A DNA stretch of 64,000 nt from Diplolepis rosae (Eukaryota; Arthropoda; Insecta; Hymenoptera; Diplolepididae), in contig JAPYXD010000716.1 of the NCBI GenBank assembly GCA_030998225.1, forward strand, positions 2,542,001-2,606,000, read 5' to 3'. Made by a program: the position numbers and the translations under genes. The notes under the pieces were generated by a model. The model was given only the letters and a program-made list of their open reading frames with translations. It was not told the origin of the DNA and ran no database searches. This document shows, one piece after another, positions 3,561-49,725 of the stretch; positions within the stretch are counted from its first letter, which is position 1, and each line of letters begins with the position of its first letter.

Positions 3561-4047
3561 TTGCTCTCTGACCTCGCATTATTATGGCTAAGAACGATAA
3601 AAAAAAAAACATTTAAAACATTGCAATTATGATTCTGCGATCAAATTTGAATTAGCAGGTGTAGGAATAAATACAAAAATTTTATTATTCAGAGATACAA
3701 ACTAGAAAAATATCGTATACCTGTCATTGAAGGCAGTGCAGTGGTTCACAATTGGCGGAACGTCTCCATCGTGAAGGTTTACTATGGGTGGAGACGTTCC
3801 GCAAATGGTGAACCACTGCACTGCCTTCAATGACAGGTACATGATGTTTTCCTAGTTTTTATCGCTGAAAAATAAAATAATTGTATTTATTCCTTCGCCT
3901 TCTATTCCAAATTTTGCCATGGAATTATAATTGCAATCTTTTAAATGTTTTTTTATCGTTCTTAGCTATAATAATGCGAGGTCAGAGAACAGTCAGAGAA
4001 CGGTCAGAGTATTCTATGACCGTTCTCTCAACCGGGTCCGCTAGGGA
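3561..4047. mobile_element. Palindromic MITE, family M2 (CCCTAGCGGACC ends), copy A
   Basis: The core at 3721-3838 is a near-perfect palindrome built on TGTCATTGAAGGCAGTGCAG and GGCGGAACGTCTCCA. The outer arms carry repeated CAGAGAACGGT units and the right end is GGGTCCGCTAGGGA. The left end is truncated. Sister copies lie at 11991, 12768 and 13391. Copy A directly abuts a half copy of another MITE (4048-4159), as if it had inserted into it. Confidence 0.82.
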
Positions 4048-4159
4048 TGAAAAATAAAAAATGGAAATATTTTTAAATTATGGTACATTTAAGGGGTATG
4101 GTACACGAGGGATGGTACATGGTACGATTACATAATTATGGTATGGTCTGGCAACGCTG
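4048..4159. mobile_element. Half copy of MITE family M3 (AGCGTTGCCAGAC ends)
   Basis: This is the reverse complement of about 10967-11090. It ends in the terminal repeat GTCTGGCAACGCTG and carries several GGTACATGGTAC-type short palindromes. The other half is missing next to MITE M2 copy A, so M2 probably inserted into it. Confidence 0.72.
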
Positions 4160-8178: not shown

Positions 8179-8244
8179 TATAATGTTCTCGAGACTTTTA
8201 ATTTGGACAATAAGTACCTTAGAGATCCCGCCATTTCCTCATAA

Positions 8245-8687
8245 GGGGCAAAATTCGTCAAGTGTACCCGCCTAAAAACTTTTTGTCTTCGATTTCCCTG
8301 AAAGTCCGCGAAATTATTGTCCTAGTGAACCTCTTTTAATTCCCCTAAGAGAACGTCTCTAGTACGACGGGTTGTCAGTATACAGGGGCTCGAATTTTCA
8401 ACCTTTTACCGCGCACGCTGATACTCAATTAACCATAACTTCTACAAAAGTTATCCAAATTAATTTTTTTATGGAAGTCTTAGAAATGTTTTTTCATTAG
8501 CTTTACGCTGAAGGCAAAGGTTTTAGATAAAAAAAATTATTTGAGCTTCATTTTTTAATTTTAAACATATTTTTGAGTTTTTCTCCAAGTGCGGCCGCTA
8601 ATTTTTTTTCCAAAATTATGTTTAAAAAAAAACTTGACTTTTTCCCTTTAAAATTTTTAGGCGGGTACACTTGACGAATTTTTCCCC
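8245..8687. mobile_element. Element with 34 bp terminal inverted repeats (GTACCCGCC family)
   Basis: GGGGCAAAATTCGTCAAGTG plus TACCCGCCTAAAAA at 8245-8278 is matched in inverse orientation at 8654-8687. The interior (about 375 bp) is non-coding. The right end coincides with the left end of the large GAACGTTC fold-back, so the two are adjacent or nested. Confidence 0.8.
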
Positions 8688-9775
8688 ATAGCACAATACC
8701 TTCCCTGAACGTTCTATGAACGTTCCCGTGGAATGTTCGGAAGATTCCATCGGAATGTTCGGAAGGTTCCATCGGAACGTTCGGAAGGTTCTATCGGAAC
8801 GTTCAAGGAACGTTCCTAGAACTAAGAAAATGTCCGGGTTTTTTGAACGTTCCAAAGCAATGTTCTCTGAATGTTCCTGTGGAACGTTCCAGGAACGTTC
8901 AAAAGGAATATTGAGAGAACATTCCGCAGCAATATTCAGAGAATATTCAAAGAGAACGTTCCTGAAACCTTCCATAGGAACGTTCAGAGAGCATTTGTAT
9001 CGAACGTTCGTAGAACTTTTCGTGGGAACATTTGCAGAGAACGTTTTGGAACATTCCGCGGGAACATTTAGGGAACATTTTTTGAGAATGTTCCTGGAAT
9101 TATTTTCTACAGCATTCAGGAAACTTTCTTTATAGATAATCCTGCAGCTTCAAACATACTAATGCAGAAAATGTTTTTTATAAATAATTTTGGGAATTAA
9201 TTTATAGGTAAAATGAAAACAATTAATTACAGATAATAATATTTGGTTTATATATTTTAAAATACTTTCAGTACAAAGAGGAAGATGCTATAACGTTTAC
9301 TGAAACATGTTTTTAATAAAATATTTAAATAAATTACATTCTTTCATAAATGTAACATTTGATTATCTATATAGAAAGTTTCCTGAATGCCATAGAAAAT
9401 AATTCCAGGAACATTCTCAAAAAATGTTCCCGCGGAATGTTCCAAAACGTTCTCTGCGAATGTTCCCTGAATGTTCCCACGAAAAGTTCTACGAACGTTC
9501 GATACAAATGCTCTCTGAACGTTCCTATGGAAGGTTCCAGGAACGTTCTCTTTGAATATTCTCTGAATATTGCTGCAGAACGTTCTCTCAATATTCCTTT
9601 TGAACGTTCCTGGAACGTTCCACAGGAACATTCAGAAAACATTGCTTTGGAACATTCAAAAAACCCGGACATTTTCTTAGTTCTAGGAACGTTCCTTGAA
9701 CGTTCCGATGGAACCTTCCGAACATTCCACGGGAACGTTCATAGAACGTTCAGGGAAGGTATTGTGCTATGGGGG
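8684..9775. repeat. Giant fold-back whose arms are GAACGTTCC motif arrays
   Basis: The left arm 8684-9141 and right arm 9361-9775 are inverted copies around a loop of about 220 bp of unrelated AT-rich DNA. Outer ends: CCATAGCACAATACC and its complement. Inner ends: CAGGAAACTTTC and its complement. Within each arm GAACGTTC, itself a perfect 8-bp palindrome, and its variants GAACATTC, GAATATTC and GAATGTTC recur every roughly 10-20 bp. Open frames of 100-140 codons in both directions are translations of this repeat (Arg/Asn/Phe/Glu-rich), not genes. The motif happens to match two adjoining heat-shock-element units (nGAAnnTTCn). Whether any factor binds is unknown. Confidence 0.93.
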
Positions 9776-10228: not shown

Positions 10229-13200
10229 TTATTCTTTTTTGATGCCATGTTTTATTTGTAATGCAAATGGTATAAAAGATGGATACTCGATAATTCTTTT
10301 TTGAACCCAGTCGTTTATTTCTTTAACTCGAAGAAAAATAGCTGGAGCAAATTCTTTGCGTTTTAAATAAGTTGCATCATTAAAAATTCCGATAACCATA
10401 TCATTGTAAACCAAAGGACTACCAACATCTGCCTACAAAATAAATTAAAAGAATATTTTAGCGTATTTTAGACGCATTACTTTTCATGGACTACAAATCA
10501 AATAATGTTAATCACCTGAGTAAAAAATTGATCACAAACAGTTGGCAATCCACAGATCTGGGAATCCGATGTTATAAAATGTTTTATCCGATTTTGATTA
10601 TAAGCTTGCATGCAATATGAACTTGGTATGGATATAATATTTATTTTGTTTAATTGTGTTTCCTGCATTATGCCATTTTCATCTTTCCATCCAAATAAGT
10701 CAGCTGTTTCGTTAAATGGCATGTCATCACGTGACAACCCAATTGGGGTTATAGGTATTTTTTTCCCCGGTTCAACAGGCTCTGTTTTAATCTAGAACAA
10801 TTATTTCAATCTTTCATTCTAACCATCTTAATGCGATTCAATCCAAGTCAGCAGAAAAATTTGTCTCAAATATAATATATATGTTTTTGAATCAAGTAGT
10901 TTTATTGATACTATTATTTTTTCATTAAAATAAAAATTAAAAAAATTAAATAAGTTTCACCTCAATCAGCGTTGCCAGACCGTACCATAATTATGTAATC
11001 GTACCATAATTTTGATTCTTGTACCATGTACCACCCCTCGTGTACCATACCCCTTAAATGTACCATAATTTAAAAATATTTCCATTTTTTATTTTTCATT
11101 TAACTCGAATGAAATGAAGAGAAAAGCAGAATAGCCATTATCCAATGAAAATCGTTTTCTGCTCTATATGAAGCATGTTTGACCAGTCAAATTTTTTTTT
11201 AAATGAAGGCTGAGTAGAGTTAATTAAAGTTAAAAAAAAAAATGTTCTTTGATAAGAGTTACTTTAAGTAAATAATACAAAATACAAAAACTTAAAAAAG
11301 TAGAAAGTGTGTTATAATTATTATTAAAATAGTTTTATTAAAACATAATATTATTATATTTATTAACAAAATGGTATTAGCATTTTATTTATGAAAAATA
11401 TTAAACTTTAAAGTATTTGAAGATATATTAATTTGAATTTCGCGCCGCGCATGCGTCTTGTAATCATGTACCATAGTGTACCATAATTTTAACATGTCGA
11501 TTCCATAATTTCGCTCCGTGTGTCTGGCAACGCTGACTTCATTGTCCCTTCCTGCAAAATAATTATAATATTTTCAATTAAAGAATGAAAGTAATTGATA
11601 TACTTGCCACAAAAAGTCCTGCATCATTATCACCAGCTATTTCTAAAGTTCTTTTGGCATGTATGAAATACGTCATTGACCATATAATTGGATATCCGTA
11701 CTGATTTTTTGATCCATCAACATTTACCAGGAGAGCTTTAGAATGTTTGTAATTAGTATCAACTTTTCGGATAAACAAAATACACCGACCTGCAGATAAA
11801 AGGATATTTTCGCTAACCGCAAATGCATTACATATGTGATTAATCCATGTTACAGAAAACATGTACCTTACAGATACATTTGTTACTGCTTTTCCATTAT
11901 CTATTTTACTTTCCAGTTGAGATGAAGAAAATACTGTGAAATGTAAATGATCATTTAATTTTGCAAGTGCTCTTCTTTTTTAAATGAATATCCCTAGTGG
12001 TCACGTTTGATAGAACGGTCTGAGTATTCTCTGACCGTTCTCTGACTGTTTTCTGACCATTCTCTGACCTTGCATTATTATGGCTAAGAACGGTAAAAAG
12101 CATTTAAAGCATTGCAATTAGGATCCTGTGGCGAAATTTGAATTAGAAAGTCTAGGAATGAATACAATTTTTTTTTTTCATCGATAAAAACTAGAAAAAC
12201 ATCGTATACCTGTCATTGAAGGCAGTGCAGTGGTTCACAATTGGCGGAACGTCTCCACCGTCAAGGTTGACTACTGGTTGGAGTGAGACACGCCTACTTT
12301 TTATCTCACTTCTACCAATTGCCAATCATAGCGGCGGAGACGTTCCGCAAATGGTGAACCACTGCACTGCCTTCAATGCCAGGTATACGATGTTTTTCTA
12401 GTTTTTATCGCTGAAAAAAAAAAATTTGTATTTATTCCTACACCTTCAAATTCAAATGTCGCCACAGAATCCTAATTGCAATGCTTTAAATACTCAGGGA
12501 GAAAAATGGGTAGTCAACTTGAATATCTGAAATGTTAACCTCATTATATTTGAGTTTTAACTATGGGACAACATTCTACATAGTGTAACGTACTATCTCT
12601 GAAATGTCAAAACTAGATGTTCAGCTTGACTTTCCCAGAATGTATGACAATTATAGAATGTAAACCTGAGTATCTCAGGAGAGTTAGCTCGATTATCTCG
12701 GAGTCTAAGTATTGACAGGTTAACTATTTCAGAATGTAAACCTAACATTCTGTCGATATTCAAACAGCCCTAACGGACCTCTCTGACCGTTCTCTGACCT
12801 CGCATTAATATGGCTAAGAACGATAAAAAAAACATTTAAAACATTGCAATTATGATTCCGTGGCAAAATTTGGAATAGAAGGCGTAGGAATAAATACAAT
12901 AATTTTATTTTTCAGCGATAAAAACTAGGAAAACATCATGTACCTGTCATTGAAGGCAGTGCAGTGGTTCACCATTTGCGGAACGTCTCCACCCATAGTA
13001 AACCTTCACGGTGGAGACGTTCCGCCAATTGTGAACCACTGCACTGCCTTCAATGACAGGTATACGATGTTTTTCTAGTTTTTATCGATGAAAAAAAAAT
13101 TTGTATTTATTCCTAGACTTTCTAATTCAAATTTCGCCACAGGATCCTAATTGCAATGCTTTAAATGCTTTTTACCGTTCTTAGCCATAATAATGCGAGG

Positions 13201-14367
13201 TCAGAGAACGGTCAGAGAGCAGTCAGAGAACGGTCAGAGTATTCTAAGACCGTTCTCTCAACCGGGTCCGCTAGGGAGACTATAAAATTATGGTCTCCCT
13301 GGCTATCAAGAAAAAATTATAGATAGTACATGGTACTATTTGCAATATAAAACTGACTACCTAAATTTTGACACTCTATTTTTTTCCTTGCTTTTTTTAC
13401 CATTCTTAGCCATAATAATGCAAGGTCAGAGAATTGTCAGAAAACGGTCAGTGTATTCTCTGACCGTTCTCTCAATCGGGTCCGCTAGGGATATTACTGG
13501 AATATTTTATAAATTGAAATCTTTATCTCCGCATTTAAAAAATCAACAGATTTTCAAATATTTTAACCAGACATATAAAGAGTGGCAACGAGTCTATTCC
13601 AGAATAGGAATTATACAGTATAAAATAGTTTAGCATAGAATGCAATTGTCTCAATCGGTAATACAGTTTATATTGTGTATACTAAAGTCTAAATACTATA
13701 TTCCTATTCTACAACCCACTTGTGACCATTCTGTCTGTTAAATATCTGCACAATAAACAGTAAACCATTATTTCATAGTCAAATTCTGTTGATTCAATTA
13801 GTACTAATAAATAAATGAGTAGAAATTGATAATTAATCGCTTAATGCCATGGATCAACCAGATCACGTGACCAAATTCCTCTAAAATTTCGTGTAAGATA
13901 ACTTTCTTATTTTACAAAATGTCTTCCTGGAAATTTGAAAAGTACAAAAGAAAACCATAAGGAACATATGTTAAATTCGTTTGATTCAAAATTTTGCAGA
14001 AAATTTTACTATTAACTGTAATTGTCGATAGGTTTTCGAATATTTTTCAAAATTTTTACTAAAAAGAAGTTAACAGACGTGCTTTATTGTCTTTTGTTAC
14101 GTTTCCCAAATTTTCAGAAAGATACTTTGTAAATTTAAAAAGTTATCTTACATAAACGAATAAATGTATAATTTAGTCACGTGGTCCGATTGATACATGG
14201 ACTTAACCAATTCCTCACTTATAATTCAATTAATAATACGAGATGCATAAATAGTTTTAAGGTAATTTTAATGTTCTTCAGATTTTAGGATATTCACCTT
14301 TATTATCAACGCCGATTATGAAAACGAAGATTAGATACATAATCGTAATCTTCCATTTGAACGACAT
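10229..14367 (-). CDS. Secreted serine protease homologue with lost catalytic residues (SPH-A)
   Basis: Four exons join in phase: 14367-14298 (signal peptide), 11933-11604, 10781-10516, 10432-10229 (stop). They give 289 aa. Exon 1 encodes a hydrophobic leader ending near FIIGVDNK. The chymotrypsin fold follows: KIDNGKAV in place of IVGG, HICNAFAVSENILLSAGRC (Cys42-Cys58 pair kept, His57 replaced by Arg), DNDAGLFVAKPVEPG around the Asp102 region, a GWKDENG strand, Cys168/Cys182-type cysteines, then ADVGSPLV where active enzymes have GDSGGPLV, so Ser195 is Val. The C-terminal helix is FLRVKEINDWVQ. With His and Ser gone it cannot be a normal protease. Known insect SPHs act as cofactors in prophenoloxidase or Toll cascades, or as venom or salivary proteins; the role here is inference. 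Introns 1 and 2 are packed with MITEs, yet all splice sites and the frame are intact. Confidence 0.85.
10967..11535. mobile_element. MITE family M3, full copy inside SPH-A intron 2
   Basis: The termini CAGCGTTGCCAGAC and GTCTGGCAACGCTG are perfect inverted repeats. Both ends carry repeated GTACCATAATT units. The flanking octamers ACCTCAAT and ACTTCATT match at six of eight positions, consistent with an aged 8-bp hAT-type target duplication. The interior is AT-rich and non-coding. A half copy lies at 4048-4159. Confidence 0.82.
11991..12490. mobile_element. Palindromic MITE family M2, copy B
   Basis: The left end is TCCCTAGTGGTCACG, with repeated TGACCGTTCTC units in the arm. The core palindrome on TGTCATTGAAGGCAGTGCAG holds a longer loop than the other copies (about 12270-12330). 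The right arm stops near 12490, where an unrelated segment begins. It lies in SPH-A intron 1, just upstream of exon 2. Confidence 0.82.
12491..12767. mobile_element. Unclassified segment between two M2 copies
   Basis: This 277-bp stretch interrupts the M2 pair. GAATATCTGAAATGTTAACC near its left side recurs loosely inverted near its right side, and AGAATGTAAACCT appears twice. It looks like a separate short inverted-repeat element with weak termini. No coding content. Confidence 0.45.
12768..13277. mobile_element. Palindromic MITE family M2, copy C
   Basis: This is the best preserved palindrome of the family. The left end is GCCCTAACGGACC, the core is TGTCATTGAAGGCAGTGCAG with a very short loop (CCATAGTAAACC), and the right end is CCGGGTCCGCTAGGGA. 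It is inverted relative to copy A in the loop. It lies within SPH-A intron 1. Confidence 0.85.
13391..13491. mobile_element. M2 terminal fragment, copy D
   Basis: Only the outer right arm remains: TTCTTAGCCATAATAATG, CAGAGAATTGTCAGAAAACG-type units and the end TCGGGTCCGCTAGGG. Confidence 0.75.
13841..14206. mobile_element. TTAA-flanked MITE family M1, copy 2
   Basis: TTAA at 13841 and 14203 flanks inverted ends TGCCATGGATCAACCAGATC and GGTCCGATTGATACATGG. The interior shares words with copies 3 and 4 (CTTTCTTATTTTACAAAAT, then ACAGACGTGC). It sits in SPH-A intron 1 about 90 bp from exon 1. Confidence 0.82.
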
Positions 14368-21040: not shown

Positions 21041-21652
21041 ATTCGGAAAAGTTTCCCATGGCAGTTTGGCCTCCTTATAGACCTTTTCATCTTGAATATT
21101 TTTTGGTGCGCATGCGTCTCGAATAATTCAAGTTCCGGTGAAGATTAGGTCATTTCAGTGCAAAGTACATTACAAATTGGCAATAATATTATTTAAAAAA
21201 TAATTTGATAAAGTTTAAGTAGAAAAGTGAGTAAAAAAAGAAAATTATTTACAAACTTGATATCTTAACTTCAAATTGTGTGAAAATATAATTTAAGTTA
21301 TTATATTAAGTTAATAATATAATTTAATATTCTCGAACCAAAATCGAAGTCTCGTCATCAACTTCTTTATGTTATTGTCATTTTATCTTATTTCTTACAT
21401 TCGTAAAAATATCTGTATTAAATTAAAAATATATCAACTTTTCTCTCTTTAAACGATTAATTTGCACAATAAAACGAAACCACCAGGCAGTAATACGAAA
21501 TAATACATACAAATATTATTTGTTTGGAAATAATTCTTTTTTTATTTGAACTTTTATCTTCGAGGAAAGGCAGCGTTACATATATATACAGAGTATATTT
21601 CTTCAGAAAATTTTATAACAAATGCTTTTTCTTTATTATAACTCCCCTATTG
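21041..21652. other. AT-rich intergenic, no gene seen
   Basis: No family signature or clean repeat was seen. Poly-A/T-rich words dominate. Confidence 0.5.
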
Positions 21653-22009
21653 AAAAATCCTATGTAGGATACCATATAGGATCTCATATAGGATCTTACA
21701 TAGGATCCTACATAAGATCCTGTGTAAGATCTTATATAAGATCCTATGTATTTTAAAGAAATAATTTTCAACTTTACATTCTAATTCAAAATTTTCTGAA
21801 TAATCTCATCTATCAGGATGCTAGCAGCAGAATTTCATTAATGAGTTACTAAATACATTTTAACGATATTTTTTATTATAAAAAGAAAATAATATAGATC
21901 AGATTATTTAGAAAATTTTGAATTAGAATGTAAAGTTGAAAATTATTACTTTAAAATACATAGGATCTTATGTAAGATCTTATGTGGTATCCTACATAGG
22001 ATTTTTAAA
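21653..22009. repeat. Fold-back with TAGGATCTTACA motif-array arms
   Basis: The outer arms hold about nine degenerate tandem units of 10-12 bp: TATAGGATCTCA, TATAGGATCTTA, CATAGGATCCTA, CATAAGATCCTG and so on (21661-21752), with the inverse at about 21960-22002. The inner arms share TTTTCAACTTTACATTCTAA and its complement. The loop is about 85 bp. The design is the same as the GAACGTTC fold-back: palindromic short units (AGGATCCT) inside a long palindrome. Confidence 0.85.
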
Positions 22010-22239
22010 TACGGTCATTAAATATAAATTTCCACATCACCTAACGCCTTCTAATTAACAATTAAATACTTCACCATTTTCATTAAAAAAGTAGATATTA
22101 GTTCAAATATGCTACTTTTTATCATTAAAAATACAAGTGCCAATCTGATTTTTAAACTTTTTATAATATTACATTCTTTTTAATAGAATATTTACATGAG
22201 AAAGCATACATCACGCATCATGAAAGTATAACCTCTCAC

Positions 22240-24767: not shown

Positions 24768-24820
24768 AGGAATTGCAGTAGAATTCGGAAATAATTGATC
24801 TTGACATAATCAAAAGGGAA

Positions 24821-27800
24821 ATGTCGGGATACAGGGGTGGAGGTGCTGGAAACCACCAGGGTGGCCCACCAGGCCTAAAACAAATTGATCTGGATCAGAT
24901 CTGGGGAGATCTTCGAGAAGGCATAGAACAAGTTTACAACAGACAATGCATGTCGAAGCCAAGATATATCGAGCTTTATACTCATGTATACAATTATTGC
25001 ACGAGTGTTCATCAACAATTAACCAGGACTTGTAATAAAAGTAAAAAGGGTCAAATGTCTGGAGGTGCACAACTTGTGGGCCTAGAACTATACAAACGAT
25101 TACGAGAATTCCTCCGAAATTATCTCATTAATTTACTTAAGGTGAGACACTTAATTGTTTTTATATTACCCATTCCAGAACACTATGCTTTAATTTTATT
25201 ATCAGTTTAAAATTTTATTTGAAAAAAAAGAATATTAATTAAAAATAAAAGTATTTTAAAAAAGGAAAATTATTTTAGAACCACGGATTAAAATTGGCGA
25301 GAAACATGGGAGGCACATTTGCTTCCTGCTTCCTGCTAGCCCCTTCCTTGGCTTCATTACTGCTTTCCCCTGTAGGTCTAAAAATGAAAAAAGCAAATAT
25401 TAATTTTCTATAGAAAATGAGGTTTTTATTTTCCGTCAATTTGTAGCTTTGTGCCGTCAAGTTCATCACTCACATCTTGTATAAGAAGCGTCAACTAATA
25501 GAAAATAGATTAGTTAAATTTAAAACATTTGAAATCTTGTTCCAATCACAAAAAGCAATAATATGACTTGCTCAGAAACTGGAACTTGAGAAATTTTCAT
25601 GGTAAAAATACGCAAATGGTAGGAAATTTCCTTAAATATCAGGAATATAAACCACTAAATTTTTTTAAATTTATTTAACCTCTAAAAAACCAAGAGCTTC
25701 GGTCTGGAAAGTAACGGAATTAATCGCTACTAAAGTAGAAGAAATTCTGACTAGTTAAGCATGGAAGTAAAATTTGCTTATAAAACCTGAAATGAGTACG
25801 AAATACTTGGACTGTGTAAATGTGTTGATTATTGTCATTAAGGGTTTTTTTGTTTTACTTACTCTAGCATGGAGTGGATTTGATGGACGAAGACGTGCTA
25901 CAGTTTTACACGAGACAGTGGGAAGAATATCAATTTAGTAGTAAAGTGCTCAATGGTGTTTGTGCGTATCTAAATCGACATTGGGTTCGACGAGAGTGCG
26001 AAGAAGGTCGCAAAGGAATTTATGAAATTTATCAACTGGCTTTGGTAACGTGGAGAGATAATCTTTTTAAGCATCTCAACAGACAGGTTTGTTTGAAATA
26101 ATAATAGGAAATATAGAAAAATTGCAAGTATTTACTGATCCTTTGAATCCATTTTTTTCCCAGGTAACGAATGCTGTTCTCAAATTAATAGAACGTGAGC
26201 GAAATGGCGAGACAATTAATACTCGATTAGTAAGTGGTGTGATAAATTGTTATGTCGAATTGGGTCTAAACGAAGAAGATCCAGGAGCGAAAGGTCAGAA
26301 TCTCACCGTTTACAAAGATTCGTTCGAAACCCTCTTTCTCGAAGACACAGAAAGATTCTACACTCGAGAGAGCTCCGATTTCCTACGCCAAAATCCAGTG
26401 ACTGAATATATGAAAAAAGCGGAACAAAGACTACTTGAAGAAGAAAAACGCGTTCAGGTTTATCTACATCAAACGACACAGGATCGTTTAGCAAAAACTT
26501 GTGAGAGGGTTTTAATCGAGAAACACTTGGACATCTTTCACTCTGAATTCCAAAATCTATTAGATTCTGATAAAAACACAGATTTAGGAAGGATGTACCA
26601 ACTTGTGGCGAGGATACCGAATGGCCTTGGAGAATTGAGAAATCTTTTGGAAAGTCACATTGCTAATCAAGGCCTGGCTGCCATCGATAAGTGCGGAGAT
26701 ACTGCTGGAAATGTAAAAACTTGTTAAAAAATATTTATAAATAGGTTATCTTAGTTTATTTTTAAAAATTTGAATTGAATATTTTACAGGATCCCAAGAT
26801 GTACGTGAATACAATTTTAGTAGTCCATAAAAAATATAACGCTTTAGTTCTTGACGCATTTAATAATGACAGTGGATTTGTGGCAGCGCTTGACAAAGCC
26901 TGTGGTCGATTCATAAATAGTAATTCAGTCACGAAAGCAGCCAACAGCAGTAGCAAATCTCCAGAATTATTGGCAAAATACTGTGATCTACTTTTAAAGA
27001 AGAGTAGTAAAAATCCCGAGGAGGCAGAACTTGAAGATACTCTCAATCAAGTTGTGAGTTCTATTGATCGAAAAATTTACGAAAAAGATGATCGGGATTT
27101 TGTATTGAGAAGTATAATTATTATTTTTCTGCTTCTTGCAGATGGTAGTCTTTAAATACATAGAAGATAAAGACGTGTTCCAAAAGTTCTACAGCAAAAT
27201 GCTGGCAAAACGATTGGTACAGCACGTGTCTGCAAGTGATGACGCTGAAGCTTCAATGATCTCGAAATTAAAACAGGCTTGTGGATTTGAATACACATCG
27301 AAGCTACAGCGAATGTTTCAAGACATTGGAGTGTCAAAGGACTTGAATGAACAATTCCGTAGACACTTGACAAATTCAGCCGAGCCACTGGATATTGACT
27401 TCAGCATTCAAGTGCTCTCTTCTGGCTCTTGGCCTTTCCAGCAATCTTTCGCCTTTTCCTTGCCAACTGAGGTACATTTTTTGCTTTATAAATTATATCT
27501 TAATTATAATTCGATTTAAATAAATAAATAGACTAATTTTTTTAGTTGGAGAGGTCTGTACATAGGTTTACAACTTTCTACAGTTCCCAGCATAGTGGAA
27601 GAAAGTTAAATTGGATGTACAACATGTCTAAGGGCGAGTTACACACAAACTGCTTTAAAAATAGGTATACATTGCAAGCGTCTACTTTCCAAATGGCTGT
27701 TTTATTACAGTATAATGTTTCTACTTCGTGGACGATACAGCAATTGCATGAATCTACACAGATAAAAATGGACTTTCTGATCCAGGTGAATTTCAAGGAT

Positions 27801-36349: not shown

Positions 36350-40977
<4,628 letters not shown>

Positions 40978-44778: not shown

Positions 44779-47061
44779 TCAAACAATGTGAGTGCTGCCC
44801 TGCAGAATATTCACTCCATTCCTTCCACCTTCGACATCCGAAGACTCGATTTGTTCCTTAAGTAACTCAAGTTCTCTAATTCCGGATACAGTAACTTCGT
44901 ATTTATGAGCAACGAGGCTTCGATAAAAATGAATTGCGAAAGCTAGGAAGATAATTAAAACTGGAATAAGAACTATACACGCTGACCACGCAGCAACTTG
45001 GGAAAAATCGTAGAATTTAACCCAACAAAGGATCGCGATTTCAAGAAGGAAGAGTAAAAGTCCTAAAAGGGTCGAGAAGGCCCAAGCCACTTCAATATAC
45101 CAGTGTAGACGTTCGTGAGGAGATTCATGGACGAGACTTATGCTATGGAGATTGCAGACAGCTTCGATGTTTGGGAGAATACAAGTTGATATCATTAGAG
45201 CAAGCATGTGAACTGCTACAAGAAGAGTTGTACAAACTGCAAAGGCAATCAGCATTTCCTTGGGAACTTTTGTATCCGAGTTTAACTGCACCTCAACCAT
45301 TGCAACCTTTAATGATAAATAATAAAGTTTTTGAGTTCGAACTTTAAAACAATTTCTAAGATTAGAAAAATGTCTAACTTGAAATACGATTAAAAATCAA
45401 TTAAAATTTATCAAGTTTGAAATAAAAAATGAAAGATTACCATGGCAAAACCTGAGAGAAGTGCAGACGTCTTGCTTGAAGCTTTGAGTTTTGCTCTGCT
45501 GAGCTGAAGTTTCCTCCACGCAAGGTATCCGGGAGTGTGGAGGCCATCTCCAGATTGAGACATCTTAGACTAGAGAACAAAAGAAGTTATCAATATGATT
45601 CATGACAAAAAAACAAACTGTGATCATGTAACTGATGAAAATTTTTTCCTGATCCTCAGGAGGCTCAGTGATAAAAAGACTAAGAGTTTAAAACAAATAA
45701 AAATCAAACATTCATAATAAATAAGAATAATATTTTATATTTGTAATAACTCTTTTTCATTTTTTCCAGGGAAATATAAGACGATCTCCTAGAATGAAAA
45801 ATAAATAACTTGAAAGGAAAAATGTGAAGATAAAAGACATTTAAAAATCCTGTTTCTACATAATTTTAGAAAAGTGAAAAAAAAAGGATGGTTAGTAGCG
45901 AGAGTTTAAGCTCGTGTGTTGAGCATTAAGCAATTAGAAGAACATACCAAACGATGGTGACAACAGAAGAGCTTGTTGCAAGTCCCACGTAGGACAAAAA
46001 AACCAACAGGTGCTGAACCAAACAAAACAACAAGTATAATAATTATTAGAAAAGAATAAGAGAAGCTGAAATGAGATGTTAATGGATCGTAAATAAATCA
46101 ATTGTGCAGGAACAACTAAAAGTTACCTAAAACAATAAAATCAAATAAGGAAAATCAAAATTGACAATAGAAGATGTTTTTTTGATTTTACGTAAATGGT
46201 TCACAAAATAATAATTGTGCTGCAGAAACGTTATTAAGCAGTAAGAATAAGAAAAAGGAAGCTAATAAAATATCTCTAAACTCTTTTGCAATTTTATATC
46301 ATAATTTTAAACACTAAACCATTGTGCAGTATTGCTTAAGCGAAAAGTGATTTAATTAAAGGAGAATATACTATTATAATTTGTAATAAAAATTCCAAAT
46401 ACTCAACTTACGATTGGATGTTTTGAAAATTTGAGAGCAAGCAGTCCCAAAAATAACCAGCAATTATTAATCATTTGATTACCGAAAAACTAACTACTTA
46501 ATTATAATTTGTTAATCTTAATCTTTTTTTCTATATTTTATCTTCTCTTAGATTAATGTGATTTTTAACTTTTTTCTTGATTGAAAATTTGATGAAGTAC
46601 TATTATTGAAAAATGGGTGTCTCTTTATAAAAATAAAGTATACTCTTTAAAATATTGCTATTTTAATTTCTACAAAACAGCCACTGAGATTTAAAAAATC
46701 ATTTTATATCAATAGCTCTCAATACGACTTTTCTTTTATTTCATTATCAGTTATATATATATAAATTTTTGTTATCAATGAAGAGGATTTTTTTATTTAT
46801 ATAAATAGTTTTGTTAATTAATTTTATAAATAGATATTTTTTTAAATTATATTTATATTGAAAGCCAAGCTAGAATAGTAAATTTTAGTATATAAAAAAA
46901 CTAACCTGGCAGTTATGAAATCGTTTATGAAAACAATGGCCGTTAGTGCTGTGTAGATGTGAAAGGGGTTGTGAATGAATTGATAGGTGTGAGGAGGGGG
47001 GCAATCCACCCTCCGCACCAAAAACTGAATTGCGTCCAGTGCTTGTCGACCATACAGACAT
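44779..47061 (-). CDS. Orai: Orai store-operated calcium channel
   Basis: Three coding exons (47061-46906, 45569-45441, 45306-44779) join in phase 0 to 270 aa. Orai forms the hexameric CRAC channel in the plasma membrane that STIM opens when ER calcium falls. Signatures are the insect start [12 protein letters not shown], the cytosolic TM1 extension [20 protein letters not shown], pore helix [16 protein letters not shown] with the selectivity-filter Glu at about residue 100, TM2 [19 protein letters not shown], the loop [15 protein letters not shown]3 [22 protein letters not shown]4 [20 protein letters not shown], and the C-terminal STIM-binding coiled coil [16 protein letters not shown] pyrimidine-AG acceptor 32 nt before the ATG shows that a noncoding exon lies further upstream. 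Confidence 0.96.
45570..46905. other. Orai intron 1, with a candidate alternative exon at 45948-46012
   Basis: On the minus strand TTCAG|CACCTG at 46012 and CGTTTG|GTATGT at 45948 enclose 65 nt. Including it would shift frame between exons 1 and 2. It fits only an alternative 5' exon with translation starting at [11 protein letters not shown] in exon 2. The rest of the intron is AT-rich without features. Confidence 0.35.
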
Positions 47062-49212: not shown

Positions 49213-49725
49213 TTGAAATTCATTCCGAGCTAATCAGAACTATTCTGATATCTGTATCCAAGCTAACGCGAATCATTCCGAACCAATCCGAAAAATGCTT
49301 TGTATCTCGTTTAATGAAAAACAGTGAAAAATAAATCCGACTCAATCTAATTCAATCCGAGGCATCAATCCGAATTAATCCGAAACAATCTGAATCAATC
49401 CGAGCTCGGATTGATCCGAACAAAATTTTCAATCAGAATTAATCCGAATCGTTCCGACCACGGTTTCATTCAGATTGATCCTGATTGGAAATTAAATTTA
49501 GATCAATCCAAACCCGGATTGATTCGGATTGGTTTCGATTCATTCGGATTGAATCGGATCAAGTCGGATTGATTTTTGACCGTTTTTCATCAAACAAGAT
49601 ACAAAACTTTCTTCGGATTAGTTCGGAATGATTCGAATTGGCTCGGATACAGATATCGGAATGATTCGGAATAGTTCTGATTGGCTCGGAATTGATTCCT
49701 ATCCGAAACTTTCACCAGGGTATTG
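49213..49725. repeat. Large fold-back with AATCCGA motif-array arms
   Basis: Left arm about 49213-49425 and right arm about 49492-49725 are inverted copies. They share GAAAAACAGTGAAAAAT/ATTTTTGACCGTTTTTC, TGTATCTCGTTTAATG and CTGATATCTGTATCC. Much of each arm consists of degenerate AATCCGA or CATTCCGA units about every 7-12 bp. The centre (CCGAGCTCGG and CCACGGTTTC) is a short loop region. No coding content. Confidence 0.88.

Follow-up and report, generated by a model that had tools for sequence, protein, structure and literature searches.

A 64,000-nucleotide window of Diplolepis rosae DNA (contig JAPYXD010000716.1, positions 2,542,001 to 2,606,000) was analyzed for the origin of the repeat element at window positions 8684-9775, in which two inverted arms enclose a loop. 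The element is very probably a non-autonomous fold-back element, similar to a miniature inverted-repeat transposable element (MITE), that was derived by deletion from a giant animal CACTA transposon ("TRC", CMC superfamily). The family of ~1.05-kb copies to which it belongs combines 645 bp from one parental end with 423 bp from the opposite one. The same termini bound segments of 21.3 kb (contig C252) and 30.8 kb (contig C94), each enclosing a transposase gene.

The genome (757.7 Mb, 428 contigs) was searched with the window element, and 40 places were scored of 463 candidates. Thirty copies (L001-L030, with L001 as the window copy) were sampled by likeness to the window element, and 20 further stretches were chosen by coordinates. 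A 21-base terminus pattern, in which two mismatches were tolerated at most, matched the genome 519 times (263 forward and 256 reverse), and the reversed pattern used as a control gave 0 matches. The boundaries 8684 and 9775 are true ends, with start and stop bases identical in other copies, and the termini are of the CCC type (CCCCCATAG...CTATGGGGG). The expectation that other copies would share arms and termini was thus borne out, and the element is a member of a dispersed mobile fold-back family. Two exact 17-base matches on viral contigs, with 1 and 0 dyads within 500 bp, were taken as chance.

Aligned copies were checked for target duplications, as the sequence-only reading had proposed. 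With the ends set by a fixed rule, identical flanking dinucleotides were present at 38 of 42 delimited elements, comprising 14 different dinucleotides; re-paired flanks gave 4.4 identical dinucleotides on average and 11 at maximum. The third flanking base was identical in 1 of the 38. No matching duplication was present at L001, L004, L031 and L044. The 42 elements omit L011, an exact duplicate of L010, and stretches with no second end within 3 kb (L036, L038, L039, L040, L046, L047 and L049) were not counted. An uninterrupted paralogous site spanning the joined flanks was found for 9 of the 42 (L013, L014, L017, L021, L022, L025, L028, L035 and L045) at 75-98% identity, in a search that covered the retrieved DNA stretches and in which weaker matches were not individually examined. 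The clearest site was that of L021 (98% over 300 bp, gapless).

L021, L023 and L026 differ from each other by 1-3 of 1047 bases and have different flanks; therefore, the family has moved recently, and some of the ~1.05-kb copies, being nearly identical, are young. The elements are short (388-2647 bp, mostly 1000-1093 bp) and non-coding, and combine terminal inverted repeats, many copies and a target duplication, as MITEs do; reading frames across the arms simply result from the repeat. Their long terminal inverted repeats, which hold internal repeats and enclose a loop, place them in the fold-back class. The copies L010 and L011 (contig C277, ~18 kb apart) are identical and have mirror-image flanks. 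They reflect either a segmental duplication in inverted orientation or a local error of the assembly, and their identity was not used as evidence of recent movement.

The C94 segment (C94:3924683-3955496) is flanked by AT on both sides, and its ends are the stretches L046 and L047. These ends are inverted copies with 99.6% identity over 2.3 kb, and their outer ~420 bp are a GAACGTTC array. L038 (contig C45), L046 and L047 share 99.0-99.7% identity over 2.3-5.8 kb from the end. On C252, the transposase gene lies between two termini 21.3 kb apart (C252:4595435-4616732) that are flanked by TA on both sides.

Genes for the transposase were located with the 752-aa protein P0121, which derives from public contigs (60 places scored of 950 candidates). 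Matches of at least 94% were obtained on C372, C45, C182, C252 and C94. The C372 gene is full length and stop-free, and the C45 gene covers residues 89-752 and is also stop-free; the genes on C45 and C182 are located 16-20 kb inward of a terminus. L046 has interrupted frames, including a 187-aa piece 95% identical to P0121, and P0121 aligns with it piecewise (three pieces at 95-99.5%). Relatives of P0121 include three proteins from Leptopilina boulardi (57-59%). Transposase_21 was detected in 8 of 40 relatives and DUF4218 in 20 of 40, so that the gene enclosed by such ends at C94 and C252 is assigned to Transposase_21 (tnp2) via its relatives. An RNase H-like core related to RAG1/Transib is a trait of the CMC superfamily, and the predicted model of the parent transposase matches RAG1/Transib, which is consistent with such a core. 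Sequence search of solved structures gave a best E-value of 0.49, and Pfam scans of the interrupted pieces gave nothing below 0.08.

The same genome contains a large CACTA/TRC radiation: there are many related transposase genes (31-69% identity, among them those at C154, C358, C107 and C347 with 55-69%), several of them open over at least 700 residues. Short frames shared by L047:2795-6947 and the corresponding part of L038 resemble exons of a second gene. They had no Pfam match at E <= 1e-3 (the best, DUF4559 at 0.0077, was below its cut-off) and no homologue among 6 candidates. They may encode a DUF4806-like protein.

When placed on the C94 end, L001-L030 run to position 645 and continue with 423-1 of the opposite end, barring gains and losses of blocks. 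Of the 13 other delimited elements, L037 and L045 also have the 645|423 junction, and L031 and L048 have it in opposite orientation and within rearranged copies. Other junctions are 1188|883 in L032 and 376|577 in L035 and L042, the latter two in opposite orientations, and that of L044 looks like 173|281; L033, L034, L041, L043 and L050 are too rearranged or diverged for a simple reading. At least three distinct deletion junctions were seen; the loop surplus is 222 bp for 645|423, 305 bp for 1188|883, 201 bp for 376|577 and ~108 bp for the junction of L044. As the junctions are unequal, the loop is the surplus of one long terminal repeat. The two inverted arms and the loop had been recognized correctly, along with the palindromic dyads and the coordinates 8684-9775, but the loop had been called unique and is a leftover of the parental terminal repeat.

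The arms of the window copy consist of degenerate GAACGTTC dyads and pair in ungapped inverted stretches of 271, 81, 71 and 46 nt with 96-98% complementarity. Their lengths had been given as 458 and 415 bp; the first figure is correct, the other arm measures 414 bp, and the imbalance is a peculiarity of this copy and not a family trait. It results from a 44-bp block found in 1 of 30 copies, the window copy alone, which lengthens the left arm to 458 bp and whose exact position inside the 22-bp repeats is a matter of choice. The two arms of most other copies have lengths within 0-24 bp of each other (often 414 and 425 bp), and copies lose and gain blocks of ~11, 22 or 44 bp.

Gene conversion had been suggested to keep the arms in step. 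It is unneeded, because the arms derive from the two near-identical terminal repeats of the large parent. Of 58 arms, 1 had its own partner as nearest relative and 46 had an arm from the same side of another copy, the latter count including the duplicate pair L010/L011. In 28 of the 30 copies (L010 and L011 were omitted, as their left arms could not be delimited), 18 of 437 variants appeared in mirrored form in both arms of the same copy, versus 5.7 expected from re-paired arms (maximum 15 in 1000 runs). Mirrored variants that recur in several copies may be inherited. The nearest-neighbor pattern does not support gene conversion as the principal reason why the arms are alike; a slight surplus of mirrored variants is left.

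The motif GAANNTTC occurs 41 times within 8684-9775 and 80 times in the whole window, versus a mean of 33.6 and a maximum of 48 in dinucleotide shuffles. Over the 30 copies the mean was 34.3 per element, versus 0.34 in mononucleotide shuffles. The consensus arm holds 27 dyads on a counting lattice chosen by the analyst; of its 26 steps, 13 are of 13 bp and 10 of 11 bp, which corresponds to a roughly 24-bp double unit. Information content was 1.2-2.0 bits in the GAA and TTC columns and 0.08-0.86 bits in the spacers. In diverged arm ends (<85% identity to the consensus), changes affected 251 of 1501 GAA/TTC positions, 457 of 1547 spacer positions and 3 of 180 positions in the first 20 bases. These rates are not proof of selection, because repeat alignment favors motif positions and a test of shared versus private variants was null. 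Decay of CpG at the central CG was not marked (C at CpG 27 of 663, outside 16 of 450). The palindromic dyads are best read, by analogy, as putative subterminal protein-binding sites.

Several observations weigh against the derivation from a CACTA parent or against a function of the dyads. The window copy itself is flanked by TT and AA without a matching duplication, and a 2-bp match is expected by chance in about one tenth of re-paired flanks. Since L001-L030 were picked by likeness to the window element, a shared junction was favored. P0121 itself has no Pfam family match at E <= 1e-3. We infer the intact unit of 21-31 kb from the agreement of its ends and duplications and from the gene between them, and no empty site for the C94 segment was found in the retrieved stretches. 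The test of shared versus private variants did not indicate selection on dyads (P 48:23, spacer 65:18, p 0.15) and leaned in the opposite direction, and the lower number of GAA/TTC changes in diverged arms may be an alignment effect.

An origin as a fold-back element of the Drosophila FB/Galileo type would imply a transposase of the P superfamily with a THAP domain, and the repeats in the long terminal inverted repeats would be THAP sites. This is very unlikely. Target duplications of FB/Galileo elements are long (7-9 bp), and such a duplication was absent here, where 2 bp are duplicated and the third base is equal in 1 of 38. The gene between the ends belongs to the Transposase_21/DUF4218 kind; VIA-align also lists the P element transposase, at a lower rank, and no THAP-directed search was made. 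In the available parts of its description, Galileo (PMC3688188) is similar in that its repeats hold transposase binding sites (THAP sites in the arms), but it belongs to the P superfamily, whereas the D. rosae element has a CACTA-type parent, a 2-bp duplication and 11/13-bp steps.

The sequence-only reading matched the dyads to the half-site pair of heat-shock factor (HSF) and held that the element could bind HSF. An array of HSF sites could render the element heat-responsive or able to recruit HSF. The core of HSF sites, made of two pentamers, corresponds to GAANNTTC, which is present about 34 times per element, but a heat-shock element array consists of at least three nGAAn pentamers in contiguous, alternating arrangement. 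The dyads follow each other at steps of 11, 13, 9 or 24 bp instead of 10, with 11 and 13 bp prevailing. When density was scored against shuffles, contiguous three-pentamer sites occurred at only 0.17 (GAAnnTTCnnGAA) and 0.07 (TTCnnGAAnnTTC) per element in the 30 elements; these values exceed those of the shuffles (0.003 and 0.008, respectively) and are low against 34 dyads per element. One looser gapped pentamer form reached 0.93 per element, versus 0.005 in shuffles. Because of dyad spacing and the rarity of contiguous trimers, an HSF array is considered highly improbable, and any HSF binding may be weak and would leave the array unexplained. That the element is a satellite or assembly artefact with repeat units joined head to head, as the tandem-like arms and the mirror-image pair L010/L011 on one contig could suggest, or that no further copy has the same termini, is contradicted by 42 delimited elements on many contigs with distinct flanks and duplications and by the uninterrupted paralogous sites, and has next to no chance of being correct.

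For the CACTA-derived miniature, it is suggested that the parent transposase, whose predicted fold is RAG1/Transib-like, acts at the CCCCC termini and moves the element in trans, because termini and duplications are shared with the parent. A dimeric element-encoded protein, either the transposase or a TnpA-like accessory protein, would bind the dyads at 11/13-bp steps and, once bound, assemble the paired ends; dyads are proposed as binding sites because of the analogy with plant CACTA TNPA sites and Galileo THAP sites. Unequally cut derivatives would persist, with the leftover loop preventing perfect, unstable palindromes. A wider model is put forward tentatively and is more doubtful than the derivation itself. 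It envisages a giant (21-31 kb) animal CACTA lineage with multi-kilobase terminal repeats, whose transpososome forms on a phased lattice of ~27 dyads per end by means of a dimeric element-encoded binder, and which gives rise repeatedly to fold-back miniatures by asymmetric deletion, with palindrome stability determining the loop. A BAH-like domain predicted at the C-terminus of the transposase could tether the protein to chromatin.

Known systems were compared as far as the available parts of the cited papers describe them. Animal TRC elements, namely SmTRC1 of Schistosoma and the TRCs of Tribolium and Aedes (PMC1636069), likewise have CCC ends, a 2-bp flanking duplication and a Transposase_21-type transposase as in the parent. 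They are 4.5-9.2 kb long and their terminal repeats span 10-54 bp, whereas the parent segments here are 21-31 kb long and the C94 terminal inverted repeats exceed 2.3 kb and begin with a palindromic dyad array. In plant CACTA elements (En/Spm and the soybean element Tgmt of 20.5 kb; PMC2613891), a TNPA-like protein binds subterminal repeats and deletion derivatives are moved in trans, which is similar; in contrast, Tgmt has CACTA ends and a 3-bp duplication, and the plant subterminal regions described there are not folded into long arms. Red alga CACTA families of 16-20 kb are listed in a review of giant transposons (PMC6431247). Tetris (PMC4079207) is apparently non-autonomous and has internal repeats of ~220 bp, unlike the 11/13-bp steps and CACTA-type parent found here. 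CACTA-derived MITEs of ichneumonoid wasps and of the viruses of these wasps (PMC6004678, where a CACTA-derived MITE family of the ant Camponotus is also cited) are small, non-autonomous, hymenopteran and flanked by 2-bp duplications, but have CAC...GTG ends, and a dyad array is unmentioned in the passages available. Among the titles and abstract openings screened in literature outside Repbase and subscription papers, no description was found of this family or of a fold-back dyad array combined with an animal CACTA parent of such size.

Table 1. Features of the fold-back element in the window
Feature	Position	Strand	Remarks
Whole non-autonomous fold-back element	8684..9775	.	boundaries same as in other copies
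Element termini			left CCCC, fifth terminal base T in window copy; right GGGGG
Left terminal inverted repeat CCCCATAGCACAATACC	8684..8700	+	519 genome-wide terminus matches
Left arm	8684..9141	+	458 bp, GAANNTTC dyad array
Private tandem expansion of window copy	8735..8778	+	44 bp (2 x 22 bp)
Loop	9142..9360	+	~219 bp; inner part of one parental terminal repeat, unpartnered; ~424-645 of parental end
Deletion junction	9362..9363	.	parental end position 645 joined to 423 reversed
Right arm	9361..9774	-	414 bp
Right terminal inverted repeat GGTATTGTGCTATGGGG	9758..9774	-	

The element is abutted by a separate abundant repeat with its own inverted ends (8241-8690; 40 places scored of 1878 candidates). 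One other copy of this repeat (contig C367) matches up to 8690, and therefore its CCCCATA end coincides with the first 7 bases of the element. Insertion of the repeat at TA in the left terminus of the element is plausible; no target duplication of the element itself was recovered at the window copy. An inverted-repeat family with CCCTAG...CTAGGG ends is present at 11992-13490 (further CTAGGG end at 13276; flanked by AT on both sides) and 3565-4048, has 11-bp units (GTTCTCTGACC) near its ends, and is possibly another TRC/CACTA family. A small inverted element at 21644-22012 starts with CCCCTATTGAAAAATCC and has arms of a ATCCTATATAGGAT-like palindromic unit, again a design of palindromes within a palindrome with another motif. 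A third inverted repeat (49221-49683) has AATCCGA-like short units in 140-nt arms that are 82% complementary; related DNA occurs in L041 and L002. Pieces of host genes were located at 24782-27519, 38206-39912 and 44779-45396. The best named relatives of the ERCC6-like frame at 24782-27519 are from Hymenoptera (Chelonus, Apis, Microplitis, Cotesia), and the other pieces are presumably cullin-1 and Orai.

In this family, three themes that are usually separate meet, i.e., the architecture of fold-back elements, the way in which miniature elements arise, and CACTA subterminal repeats. Near-identical copies, parental transposase genes with open frames, and several junctions render the origin of fold-back miniatures directly testable. 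To our knowledge, the binding sites of an animal CACTA transpososome have not been mapped so far, and the 11/13-bp dyad steps provide a concrete prediction of such sites.
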